From Lysobacteraceae bacterium (GTDB taxonomy: Bacteria > Pseudomonadota > Gammaproteobacteria > Xanthomonadales > Ahniellaceae), in NCBI GenBank assembly GCA_021299185.1, contig JAJTHZ010000131.1, positions 1 to 64,000 of the forward strand: 64,000 nucleotides of DNA, in the 5' to 3' direction. The position numbers and the translations under genes were made by a program. The notes below the pieces were generated by a model. That model ran no database searches, was not told the origin of the DNA, and saw only the letters and a list, made by a program, of their open reading frames with translations. Shown piece after piece: positions 4,252 to 54,957 of this stretch (position 1 is the stretch's first letter; each line of letters starts with the position of its first letter).

Positions 4252-4350
4252 AGGGCCCAGGGCTCAGGGCCCAGGGCCCAGTGCGCAGGGCCCAGGGCGC
4301 GATGATCACACCGGCTTTTCTGGGCCCTGTACCCTGGGCCCTGGGCCCTG
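4252..4350. repeat. GGGCCCAGGG repeat array with inverted arms (locus 1)
   Basis: This gap between two convergent genes carries a left arm (4252-4297) with repeated GGGCCCAGGG units. After about 22 bases comes a right arm (4320-4350) with the reverse complement CCCTGGGCCC, including one TACCCTGGGCCC unit. The two arms can pair into a long hairpin. Similar arrays lie at 16302, 37410 and 54801. It may act as a bidirectional terminator, but there is no clean T-run. Its origin is unknown. Confidence 0.85.
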
Positions 4351-16301: not shown

Positions 16302-16385
16302 CGGGGCCCAGGGTATAGCGCCCAGGGTATAGGCCGATTGGCTCCGCCTGCGGCTGCGCCCCTATACCCTCTTCCCTATACCCTC
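16302..16385. repeat. GGGCCCAGGGTATAG repeat array with inverted arms (locus 2)
   Basis: The left arm (16304-16333) has GGGCCCAGGGTATAG and GCCCAGGGTATAGG. After a 28-base loop the right arm (16361-16385) has CCTATACCCT and CCCTATACCC, the reverse complement of the TATAG-bearing unit. A single CTGGGCCCTGG follows at 16439. The array sits between two genes on the same strand, so it is not restricted to convergent ends. Confidence 0.85.
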
Positions 16386-16502
16386 GTTCGGTTGACAGCG
16401 CGCGGGCTTGAACTGCCCGGCCGAGCGTTTCGTGCGAACTGGGCCCTGGCCCCTCCCAAAGCCGACTGGCCCCCGCACCCGCCCATCCGCGATAATCATG
16501 GG

Positions 16503-36003: not shown

Positions 36004-36077
36004 AGAAAGGCTTGCAGGTTACGGATCGTAAAGGAAAATTGCTTGCAATCCGCGGCGCGTCAGGGTTCAATCCGCGC

Positions 36078-37391
36078 ATGCTCGCGCGTGTCCTCCGCCT
36101 GTGCCTGTTCCTGCTGCCGCTCGCCCTCGCGCTGGCACCGGCCGCACGCGCCGAGGTCGAGGTGCGCGACGCGCGGGTCAGCGAAGAAAAAGGCTTCACG
36201 CGCGCGGTGTTCGAACTCTCGCGCCCGGGCGAGTACAAGATCTTCAGCCTCGCCGACCCGGCGCGCGTGGTGATCGACCTCGAAGGCGCGCGGCTCGGCA
36301 GCGGGTTCAAGGCGCCGACCGGCGCCGGCGTGGTGAAGGGCGTGCGCAGCGGCGCGCCGCAGCCGGGCAGCCTGCGCGTGGTGCTGGACCTCAGCGATGC
36401 GGCGAAGCCGCGCTCGTTCGTGCTCACGCCCGGCCCGCGCGCGGGGCATCGGCTGGTGGTCGACCTGACGCCGCCGAAGTCGCAGCCGGTGAAGTCGGTG
36501 GAGAGCATCGCCGCGGGCGCGCCGCGCGACGTGGTCATCGCGATCGACGCCGGCCACGGCGGCCAGGACCCCGGCGCGATCGGCCCGCGCGGCACGCGCG
36601 AAAAGGACGTCACCCTGCAGATCGCGCGCCGCCTCGCCAAGGCGATCGACGCCACGCCGGGCATGAAGGCCGTGCTGATCCGCGACGAGGACGTGTTCCT
36701 GCCGCTCAAGCGCCGCTACGAGAAGGCGCGCGACGCCAAGGCCGATCTGTTCATCTCCCTGCACGCCGACGCGATCGCGTCCGGGCGCGCGGCCGGCTCC
36801 TCGGTGTACATGCTGTCCACCCGCGGCGCGAGTTCCGAGGCCGCGCGCTGGCTGGCCGACCGCGAGAACGCCTCCGACCTGGTCGGTGGCGTGTCGCTGT
36901 CCGACAAGGACGACACCCTGGCCGCGGTCCTGCTGGATCTGTCGCAGGGCGCCACGCTGGGCGCCAGCGACGCCGCGGCCAACCACGTGCTGCTGGCGCT
37001 GTCGCGCTTCGGGCGCGTGCACAAGCAGGAGGTGCAGCACGCCAACTTTGTGGTGCTGCGCTCGCCCGACGTGCCGTCGATCCTGGTCGAGACGGCGTTC
37101 ATCTCCAACGCCGAGGAAGAAAAGCGCCTGCGCGACCCGCGCCACCAGCAGAACCTCGCGCAGGCGATCACCGAGGGCGTCACCAACTATTTCTACACCG
37201 CGCCGCCGCCCGGCACCTTCATCGCGCAGAACCCGCGCAAGGCGCGCGAGCACATCGTCTCGCGCGGCGAAACCCTGGCCCTGATCGCGCAACGCCACGG
37301 CGTCAGCCTCGCCAGCCTGCGTCGCGCCAACGGCATCCGCGGCGATATCGTCAAGCCGGGGGATGTGTTGCGGATTCCGGGGACGGGGTGA
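36078..37391 (+). CDS. amiC: N-acetylmuramoyl-L-alanine amidase AmiC-like (AMIN, amidase_3, LysM)
   Basis: This 437-residue periplasmic amidase splits daughter-cell peptidoglycan. A signal peptide (1-24) is followed by an AMIN targeting domain (about 25-125, FSLADPARVVIDLEGARLG). The zinc amidase_3 domain (about 150-370) has IDAGHGGQDPGAIGPRGTREKDV and FISLHADAI with the metal residues. A C-terminal LysM (about 390-435, HIVSRGETLALIAQRHGVSLASLRRAN) is found in this lineage and absent from E. coli AmiC. ATG 36078 is chosen because the signal peptide begins there. A repeat-filled gap of 531 bases follows. Confidence 0.94.
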   Translation: MLARVLRLCLFLLPLALALAPAARAEVEVRDARVSEEKGFTRAVFELSRPGEYKIFSLADPARVVIDLEGARLGSGFKAPTGAGVVKGVRSGAPQPGSLRVVLDLSDAAKPRSFVLTPGPRAGHRLVVDLTPPKSQPVKSVESIAAGAPRDVVIAIDAGHGGQDPGAIGPRGTREKDVTLQIARRLAKAIDATPGMKAVLIRDEDVFLPLKRRYEKARDAKADLFISLHADAIASGRAAGSSVYMLSTRGASSEAARWLADRENASDLVGGVSLSDKDDTLAAVLLDLSQGATLGASDAAANHVLLALSRFGRVHKQEVQHANFVVLRSPDVPSILVETAFISNAEEEKRLRDPRHQQNLAQAITEGVTNYFYTAPPPGTFIAQNPRKAREHIVSRGETLALIAQRHGVSLASLRRANGIRGDIVKPGDVLRIPGTG

Positions 37392-37409
37392 TTGTTGGCG
37401 GTGAGGGAT

Positions 37410-37832
37410 GAGGGCCCAGGGCCCAGGGCCCGGAACCTTGATGGTGCTCGGTACGGTGCAGGATTTGGCTTCGTTCCTTGGTGCGCGGGTATAGGGCCCA
37501 GGGTATAGCCGAAGGTTGGGTGGCTCGCGGGATCGATTCGGCCGTGGGGGACCACCGTCTCGCACCGGCATCGATGCGTGCCACGGCCCCCGCATCGCAC
37601 CTGTACCCTGGGCCCTATACCCTTGCACGAAGAAGCGAAGCGGCGACCTCGTTCCTGCTGATCGCCCACCAGGTTCTGGACCCTGCTCGCGACGGCATCG
37701 TGGTGTGCCACGGTCTCCGCACCGCACCTATACCCTGGGCCCTATACCCGCGCACCCTGGAGCGAAGCGGCTATCTCGTTCCTGCTGATCGCCCACCAGT
37801 TTCTGGGCCCTGGGCCCTGAGCCCTGGGCCCT
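37410..37832. repeat. Large GGGCCCAGGG/GGGTATAG repeat array (locus 3)
   Basis: Most of the 531-base amiC-mutL gap is repeat. Direct units lie at 37410-37432 (GGGCCC repeated) and 37490-37508 (GGGTATAGGGCCCAGGG). Reverse-complement units lie at 37601-37623, 37728-37749 (CTATACCCTGGGCCC) and 37803-37832. AGCCGAAGGT next to the unit at 37507 recurs inverted at 54917. The outer and inner units are nested and could fold into one large structure. No gene with a ribosome binding site is seen. Confidence 0.85.
37568..37821 (+). repeat. 127-bp imperfect tandem repeat
   Basis: Two adjacent copies, about 37568-37694 and 37695-37821, have a constant 127-base offset. Shared blocks include GCATCG..GTGTGCCACGG, CGCACCT.TACCCTGGGCCC, GCGAAGCGGC and CTCGTTCCTGCTGATCGCCC. 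The copies differ at scattered positions, so the duplication is not very recent. Confidence 0.8.
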
Positions 37833-37922
37833 TTCAGAAACAACGCCCACCGCCGCGCGCCGCAACTCCCCCCCCAACCGCCCCTGCCGTATCATCCGGG
37901 ACCCGCCACGCCCCGATCGCCC

Positions 37923-39737
37923 GTGCGCATCCGCCAACTCCCCGAGCAACTGATCAACCAGATCGCCGCCGGCGAGGTGGTCGAGCGCCCGGCCTCGGTG
38001 GTGAAGGAATTGCTCGAGAACGCGCTCGACGCCGGCGCGCGACGGATCGAGATCGACCTGGAGGCGGGCGGTGCCAAGCTGGTGCGCCTGCGCGACGACG
38101 GCGGCGGGATCGCGCTGGACGACCTGCCGCTCGCGCTGTCGCGCCACGCGACCAGCAAGATCGCCAGCCTCGACGACCTCGAAACCGTGCGCACCCTGGG
38201 CTTCCGCGGCGAGGCGCTGCCGAGCATCGCCTCGGTCTCGCGCTTCGAGCTCGTTTCCCGCGAGCGCGGCGCCGAGCGCGCGTTCGCGATCGTTGCCGAG
38301 GACGGGACGCTCGGCGCGGTGAAGCCCGCGCAGCATCCCGAGGGCACCTCGGTGATCGCGCGCGACCTGTTCTTCAACGTGCCGGCGCGGCGCAAGTTCC
38401 TGCGCGCGGAGCGGACCGAACTCGGGCACGTCGAGGAACTGGTGCGCGCGCAGGCGCTGGCCAATCCGCACGTCGCCTTCCGCCTCAGCCACAACGGCAA
38501 GGTGCTGTCGAATCTCCTGCCGGTCGACGACCCGCAGCGGCGCGTGGCCGACGCGGTCGATCCGGATTTCGCCGCCGGCGCGTTGCGCATCGACGCCGAG
38601 GCCGGTGGTATCCGGCTGCACGGCTGGATCGGTGCGCCGACCGCCTCGCGCGGGCAGGCCGACCGGCAGTTCTTCTTCGTCAACGGGCGCATGGTGCGCG
38701 ATCGGCTGATCGCGCATGCCGTGCGCCAGGCGTATGCCGACGTGCTGTTCCACGGGCGCCATCCGGCGTTCGTGCTGGAACTGCGCATCGATCCGGCGGC
38801 GGTGGACGTCAACGTGCACCCGCAGAAACACGAGGTGCGCTTCCGCGACAGTCGCCTGGTGCACGACTTCGTGTTCCGCAGCCTGCATGCCGCGCTGGCG
38901 GACACGCGTGCGGGCGCGGCGGCGCCGATCGCAGCATCCCCGGCGCCCGCGTTCGCGCTGCCGGCGGCGAACGGAGGCGAGGGCGGAGCGTGGGCGCAGG
39001 CGCGGCTGGGGCTGCCCACGCGCGTCGCGTCGGTCCCGCTCGCCACCTATGGCGCGCTGTACGGCAACGCCGCGGCCGCCACGCCCGCGCCGGTGGGCGC
39101 GATCGCGGACGCCGCATCCACGCCGCAGCCGCTGCCGGAATCGCCCGCCGACCTGCCGCCGCTCGGCTTCGCGCTGGCGCAGTTGCGCGGCATCTACATC
39201 CTGGCCGAGAACGCACACGGCCTGGTGCTGGTCGACATGCACGCCGCGCACGAGCGCATCACCTACGAACGGCTCAAGGACGCGCGCGCCTTCGGCGCGG
39301 TGCCGTCGCAGTTGCTGCTGGTGCCGCCGACGTTGCGCGTGTCGCCGCGCGAGGCCGATGCGGTGGAGGAACACCAGGCGCGCTTCGCGGCGCTCGGCTT
39401 CGAGATCACCCGCAGCGGCCCGGATCGCGTGGTCGTGCGGCGCATCCCGTCCGCGCTGGAGGGCGCCGACGTCGAGCGGCTGGTCGGCGACGTGCTGGCC
39501 GATCTCGTCGAGCACGGTTCCGACGCGCGCCTGGTCGAGTACGAGAACGAACTGATGGCGACCATGGCCTGCCACGCCTCGGTGCGCGCCAACCGCCGGC
39601 TCACCCTCGCCGAGATGAACGGCCTGCTGCGCCAGATGGAGCAGACGGAGCGCAGCGGGCAGTGCAATCATGGTCGCCCGACCTGGGTCCAGTTGACGCA
39701 GGCCGAACTCGACCGCCTGTTCCTGCGTGGCCGCTGA
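37923..39737 (+). CDS. mutL: DNA mismatch repair protein MutL
   Basis: This 604-residue GHKL ATPase links MutS mismatch recognition to strand removal. It has N-terminal [43 protein letters not shown] and [14 protein letters not shown]. The C-terminal domain has [12 protein letters not shown], which fits the metal endonuclease motif DQHA(x)2E(x)4E except for Met in place of Gln, and QCNHGRPT near the end. This fits a nicking MutL of bacteria without MutH. It starts with GTG at 37923. Confidence 0.96.
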
Positions 39738-53433: not shown

Positions 53434-54801
53434 ATGCGCACCATGCCATTCGCCGCCATCGCGCGCTGCCTCGGCGCGCTCGTCCTGGTCTTCGTTGCAC
53501 TTCCGTCCGCCGCGCAGGAGCAGGTGCTGCGCCTGCACGGCTCCAACACCGTCGGCCAGCGGCTGGCGCCCGCGCTGGTGCGCGAGTGGGCCGCCGCGCG
53601 CGGCCTGGCGGAGGCCGGCAGCGCCCGTCTCGCGGAGGAAGAACTGCGCCTGAGCTTCAGCGGCGGTGGGCGCAGCCTGGTGGTCGACGTGCATTCGCAC
53701 GGCACCGGCACCGGCTACCGCGACCTGCTCGATGGCAAGGCCGACCTGTGGATGGCCTCGCGGCCCGCCACCGTGGTTGAAGTCGCCGGCGCGGTGCGTG
53801 TCGGGCGCCTCGATTCGCCGGCACAGGAGCATGTGATCGCGCTCGATGGCCTCGCCATCATCGTCCACCCCGCGAACCCCGTACGGGGGCTCACGGTCGA
53901 GCAGGTGCGGGACCTGTTTTCCGGACGGATCGACGACTGGTCGGCGGTCGGCGGCCGCCCCGGTCCGGTCAAGCGGTATGCGCGCGACGACAAGTCCGGC
54001 ACCTACGACTCCTTCCGCAGCATGGTGATGCGCGATGCCGGCCTGGCCGCCGGCACCTCGCGCTTCGAGTCGACCGACCAGTTGGCGGCGATGGTGGCGG
54101 CCGACCCGGCCGCGATCGGCTTCGTCGGGCTGGCCGGCGTCGGTCCCGCGCGCGCGGTGCCGGTCGCCGACGCCGGCACGCGGGCGCTGGCCGCCGACCG
54201 CGTCACCGTGGGCACCGAGGACTACGTGCTGTCGCGCCGGTTGTTCCTCTACCACCGCGAGCTGCCGTCCGCGCTGGCCAGCGACTTCATCGAGTTCGCG
54301 CTCGGCGCGCGCGGCCAGGCCGTGGTGGAGCGCATCGGCTTCGTCTCGCAGGACGTGGCGGCGGTGGACGTGGCGCCGCGCACCGACGTCTCGAACGAGT
54401 ATCTCGGCCTGGTGCAGGGCGCGCGGCGGCTGTCTCTGAACTTCCGTTTCGGCGCCCGTGCGGCCCTGCTCGACAACAAGGCGCTGCGCGACGTCGAGCG
54501 ACTGGCCGACTACCTGCGCCGCCCGGGCGTGGGCGAACTGGACGTGATCCTGCTCGGCTTCACCGACGGCCACGAGATCGGCACCTACCAGGCCATCAGC
54601 CTGTCCAACGAGCGCGTGGACCTGGTGGCGCAGGCGCTCGGCGAGCGCGGCGTCGGCGCGCGTCGCGTGCGCGGCATGGGTTACGTCGCGCCAGTCGCCA
54701 GCAACGAAACCGACCTCGGCCGCGCACGCAATCGTCGCGTCGAGGTCTGGGTGCGACCGCGCGACGCGGCAGGGTCGCCGGCGGTGGCGAGGGGGCCTTA
54801 G
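53434..54801 (+). CDS. PstS-like substrate-binding domain fused to OmpA-like domain
   Basis: This 455-residue protein has a signal peptide (1-27). The PBP-like domain (about 30-315) starts VLRLHGSNTVGQRLAPALV, with TGTGYRDLLDGKADLWMASRPA, GLAIIVHPANPV and DDKSGTYDSFRSMV, all resembling PstS-type phosphate-binding proteins. The C-terminal OmpA-like domain (about 335-440) has ILLGFTDGHEIGTYQAISLSNERVDLVAQAL and GRARNRRVEVWV, which bind peptidoglycan. No pst transporter genes are next to it. The ligand may be phosphate or another anion. Terminal residues are Ala/Gly/Pro-rich and meet the repeat array. Confidence 0.88.
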   Translation: MRTMPFAAIARCLGALVLVFVALPSAAQEQVLRLHGSNTVGQRLAPALVREWAAARGLAEAGSARLAEEELRLSFSGGGRSLVVDVHSHGTGTGYRDLLDGKADLWMASRPATVVEVAGAVRVGRLDSPAQEHVIALDGLAIIVHPANPVRGLTVEQVRDLFSGRIDDWSAVGGRPGPVKRYARDDKSGTYDSFRSMVMRDAGLAAGTSRFESTDQLAAMVAADPAAIGFVGLAGVGPARAVPVADAGTRALAADRVTVGTEDYVLSRRLFLYHRELPSALASDFIEFALGARGQAVVERIGFVSQDVAAVDVAPRTDVSNEYLGLVQGARRLSLNFRFGARAALLDNKALRDVERLADYLRRPGVGELDVILLGFTDGHEIGTYQAISLSNERVDLVAQALGERGVGARRVRGMGYVAPVASNETDLGRARNRRVEVWVRPRDAAGSPAVARGP

Positions 54802-54957
54802 GGGATAGGGCCCAGGGTATAGGGCCCAGGGCCCAGGGATGGCGTGCGTTGTCGCAGATCAGAGGGTGTGGGCGGCAGTTCGGCGCGCAGCCGTCGGGCA
54901 CCGCCGCAAGAGTGTTACCTTCGGCTGGGCCCTGGGCCCTGTTTCCTGGGCCCTGAG
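54801..54957. repeat. GGGCCCAGGG/TATAG repeat array with inverted arms (locus 4)
   Basis: This array fills the whole gap between two convergent genes. The left arm (54801-54838) has GGGATAGGGCCCAGGG, TATAGGGCCCAGGG and GCCCAGGG. The right arm (54925-54957) has CTGGGCCCTGGGCCC and CCTGGGCCCTGAGG. The 86-base interior is unique except for ACCTTCGGCT (54917-54926), the reverse complement of AGCCGAAGGT beside a unit at 37507. The shared flank supports one element family. Confidence 0.85.

Follow-up and report, generated by a model that had tools for sequence, protein, structure and literature searches.

A convergent-pair array of AGGG-YNY heptamers between amiC and mutL of a Lysobacteraceae bacterium, a probable member of a dispersed repeat family

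The 531 bases between amiC and mutL (37392-37922) contain an array of heptamers, which we consider likely to be one locus of a dispersed, non-coding family of (AGGG-YNY)n convergent pairs. The family would be a lineage-specific variant of the Xanthomonas GGGNATC class that is tolerated behind stop codons, reshaped by recombination and able to form hairpins. Coordinates refer to the window, i.e., the whole stretch of 64,000 nucleotides that was analyzed.

Heptamer arms in the amiC-mutL gap

The gap is preceded by an open reading frame for an amiC-type N-acetylmuramoyl-L-alanine amidase (36012-37391, + strand, exact start uncertain; Pfam AMIN, Amidase_3 and LysM) and followed by mutL (37923-39737, + strand; Pfam MutL_C and DNA_mis_repair). 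The first-pass annotation had found no supported gene in it, and this was borne out: a profile search of the reading frames in the gap gave no Pfam match, and a codon model detected no coding signal.

The annotation had also distinguished GGGCCC and TATAG as separate nested units. When the gap is read at period seven, AGGGCCC, AGGGTAT, AGGGTAC and AGGGCTC are all heptamers of the type AGGG+NNN. GGGCCC and GGGTATAG have this 7-base period in common and represent two forms of the same heptamer, AGGG-YNY, in which the last three bases are mostly CCC, CTC, TAT, CAC or TAC. Two arms on the + strand at the left of the gap lie opposite three arms on the - strand at the right, which agrees with the direct and reverse units, and the several possible pairings, described before. 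The outer left arm (37404-37431, +) has four G-tracts and consists of AGGGATG followed by three AGGGCCC units, and the inner left arm (37486-37507, +) consists of CGGGTAT, AGGGCCC and AGGGTAT followed by a single A. On the other side, two inner right arms are present, with the unit orders TAT-CCC-TAC (copy 1, 37602-37623, -) and TAT-CCC-TAT (copy 2, 37729-37750, -), and the outer right arm (37804-37832, -), which also has four G-tracts, reads AGGGCCC, AGGGCTC, AGGGCCC and AGGGCCC plus a final A. The outer arms thus do not contain GGGCCC units only, as had been proposed, because the left one opens with AGGGATG and the right one includes AGGGCTC. Nor is the gap built almost entirely from repeats: the heptamer arms sum to about 123 of its 531 bases (about 23%).

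An inverted repeat and a tandem duplication in the array

The two ends of the array, 105 bases each, make up one imperfect, ungapped inverted repeat that includes the filler: the left half, composed of outer arm, filler and inner arm (37404-37508, +), agrees at 78 of 105 positions with the right half (37728-37832, -) when the latter is reverse-complemented. In addition, a segment of 127 bases is tandemly duplicated (37559-37685 and 37686-37812, both +; 108/127 identical), and the third reverse unit is due to this duplication. As both 105-base arms carry the nested order together with non-repeat filler, the nested order is older than the inversion or duplication. The earlier suggestion that units had been inserted into each other was therefore rejected in favor of the inverted repeat plus the tandem duplication.

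The array belongs to a genome-wide family

Chance was excluded as the source of the array: the pattern AGGGNNNAGGGNNNAGGG is matched 530 times across the genome and its reversed control once, and GGGTATAGG occurs 8 times in the window versus 0.03 times expected. Three further arrays of the same family are present in the window, at 4252-4349 and 54801-54941, both between convergent genes, and at 16304-16455. With 429 bases, the amiC-mutL array is indeed the largest in the window, as first noted (98, 141 and 152 bases for the others).

Forty loci were taken around the first matches and three more were added later; the context counts cover 44 loci. The sampled loci are the best matches to the amiC-mutL gap and not a random sample of the family. 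The assembly consists of 270 contigs, and some arrays are located at contig ends. One of its contigs (C50:21-164) contains a long one-sided heptamer array of about 20 units near the contig end, which is probably a longer array broken by the assembly.

The closest known counterpart is the class of GGGNATC/GGGAATC heptameric G4 repeats of Xanthomonas, which are dispersed between genes and whose function is not known (Rehm et al. 2015, PMC4692102). These repeats show a preference for four units, lie near stop codons and are rare between divergent genes, and convergent pairs in close proximity number 70 in Xcc and 75 in Xac (PMC4692102). Like them, the present repeats are tandem heptamers with a GGG tract that are dispersed through the genome. 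Four G-tracts is the most common arm length (48 of 127 arms). Convergent pairs are likewise present: 24 loci have the simple "+-" layout, and at each of the 40 loci that have more than one arm, a + arm comes first and a - arm last. The spacers between paired arms of the sampled loci range from 16 to 238 bases. When internal heptamers were scored without demanding a match to the middle unit, AGGG was intact in 238 of 254, and loop positions 5 and 7 were nearly always pyrimidines.

The placement relative to genes is also similar to that in Xanthomonas. According to the flanking genes, 23 of the 44 loci are codirectional, 19 convergent and only 2 divergent. With orientation calls from a home-made simple codon model and a single window as the baseline, the divergent placement is depleted relative to window gaps of more than 100 bases (p = 0.003) and borderline relative to all gene pairs (p = 0.06), and the convergent placement is enriched relative to all pairs (19/44 versus 11/55, p = 0.016) and to long gaps (p = 0.045). 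At codirectional loci the arrays lie a median of 20 bases behind the upstream stop codon and 61 bases ahead of the next start codon.

The unit itself differs from GGGNATC/GGGANTN: it is AGGG-YNY, and its commonest form contains the self-complementary GGGCCC. The present arrays, which are found in other genomes, are moreover composite: they combine outer with inner arms and include duplicated segments of greater length. As every architectural feature tested was found here and the unit sequence was not, we regard the family as a variant of the Xanthomonas class that lies outside the GGGNATC family; given the different unit, we do not claim common descent.

The short heptamer arrays also resemble the TAACTGA repeats of the Beggiatoaceae in being intergenic and patchily distributed. 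The latter have no known mechanism, and their distribution suggested horizontal transfer (MacGregor 2015, PMC4679880), but they are not G-rich, are almost all direct and mostly lie just upstream of start codons.

Relatives lack the array at amiC-mutL

In seven genomes of the same family, the amiC-mutL gap measures 40-98 bases and contains no heptamers, and the mutL-proximal remainder of our gap (37833-37922, +) is about as long as such a whole gap. The gap is 4-183 bases long at 79 other loci in more distant genomes, and heptamers are present in none of them. Together with the duplications within loci, which are present at 5 of the 44 loci (amiC-mutL, L047, L049, L058 and L065), the short gaps of the relatives indirectly support the earlier view that the array is dynamic. 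We propose that slippage, along with recombination between heptamers, alters the arrays, and that the 127-base duplication at amiC-mutL may be a product of these processes.

Of 398 genomes in the order, 218 have generic G3N4 heptamer arrays; in some of these, simple G-runs are counted as well. In five of the genomes (G022, G067, G159, G365 and G373), G3N4 matches run into the hundreds or thousands, with other loops or G-runs. The AGGGCCC type is present in the source genome (G000) and in genus g29 of another family, f11 (589 matches in G043, 77 in G055 and 1 in G049); elsewhere, a single match was found, in G370. The inner core GGGCCCAG-N0-3-AARAGC has a similar distribution, with 49 matches in the source genome, 139 in G043 and 10 in G055; none of the nine same-family genomes has more than one. 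The distribution of the AGGGCCC type is patchy, comprising the source genome plus one genus of another family, and would be explained by repeated losses of the family, by two origins or by movement between families.

Alternative explanations

The last of these possibilities would fit a mobile, non-autonomous element of the MITE or REP type, with heptamer ends and a transposase acting in trans. In its fullest form, this alternative holds that AGGG-YNY arms and the AARAGC core make up an element that was transferred horizontally between two families of the order and then amplified in each genome. We regard both versions as rather unlikely. The unit type and the GGGCCCAG-N0-3-AARAGC core shared by the source genome and g29, but hardly found in same-family genomes, would be expected for such an element, and many loci share the unit order CCC-CTC-CCC-CCC. 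Direct words at the array edges are not in excess, as target-site duplications would be (p = 0.29), and a search for outer inverted words at these edges was negative. After masking of the heptamers, most spacers show no relationship from one locus to another; the shared sequences are a palindromic repeat of the GTAGGGTGCAATGAG type, present at five loci, and short inner words. Finally, the array sequences tested had no match in viral contigs or plasmids.

The presence of four Y1 (RAYT-type) transposase genes in the genome would also fit a mobile element. REP and BIME elements, which are associated with RAYT transposases, have a GTAG/GTGG head tetranucleotide followed by a short palindrome (PMC3686654). 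The present arrays resemble them in being numerous, dispersed, intergenic and palindromic in a genome with RAYT-type genes, but they lack this head and short palindrome. No heptamer array is present at any of the four RAYT loci; three of them carry GTGGGAGC-type REPs instead. The source genome has separate GTAG/GTGG-type REPs besides its heptamer arrays. At L174, L176 and L177, GTGGGAGC/GCTCCCAC repeats lie close to the Y1 genes, and these genes and repeats are likely the REP/RAYT system of the source genome. A separate palindromic repeat, GTAGGGTGCAATGAGCGCAGCGAATTGCACC, which resembles a GTAG-headed REP, is located in or beside arrays at L034, L035, L037, L045 and L061.

A second alternative, for which we see still less probability, is that the arrays are functional 3' elements, the hairpins of which end transcription from both sides or protect mRNA 3' ends. 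Their location close behind stop codons, the excess of convergent contexts and the extremely stable hairpin predicted on both strands are in line with such a role, as is the finding that Xanthomonas transcripts start or stop at repeats of this type more often than at controls (PMC4692102). On computational folding, which the first-pass annotation had suggested, the RNA of the array strand reaches -258.9 kcal/mol with z = -10.6, a value that also argues against chance, and three short elements have energies of -66 to -86 kcal/mol whichever strand is folded. However, none of 78 array ends has five or more Ts in the next nine bases, and no U-tract follows the arms at amiC-mutL. Hence, the array is not an intrinsic terminator, and a hairpin followed by a U-tract was rejected. 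Unit types common to the left and right arms of one locus are not above chance (p = 0.12), and neither is extension of the stem by the sequence just inside the arms (p = 0.75); covariation of the arms was thus not found, and these results give no support for selection on the hairpin. Mere tolerance, moreover, predicts the identical placement. In Rfam, no match exceeded the gathering score, weak miRNA models far under their cut-offs being the only ones detected.

That the arrays act as G-quadruplexes, as put forward for the GGGNATC repeats, appears very improbable: the gap has three four-tract motifs (37405-37428 on the + strand, and 37733-37757 and 37808-37831 on the - strand) and four tracts is the commonest arm length, but the regular inner-arm heptamers supply only three tracts, and since the GGGCCC of the commonest unit can pair with itself and every arm lies opposite its complement, a hairpin or duplex should be more likely to form.

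Possible mechanism and meaning

Our preferred reading remains that the amiC-mutL array is a stop-tolerated locus of the dispersed AGGG-YNY family. Each convergent pair has its G-rich strand at the left and its C-rich strand at the right. We propose that the 3' placement arises because arrays are tolerated just behind stop codons and would be harmful in promoters. Transcription of an array would yield a long hairpin of great stability that, like those of REP or BIME elements, could protect the upstream mRNA at its 3' end or impede polymerase or exonuclease. By analogy, then, a REP-like protective effect of the hairpin is possible.

Among the short tandem DNA repeats located between prokaryotic genes, heptamer arrays are reportedly the commonest, and they have no clear function (PMC6344855). 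The AGGG-YNY variant, with its self-complementary unit and its patchy distribution across families, provides a test case for distinguishing hairpin from quadruplex formation, and also local expansion from transfer.
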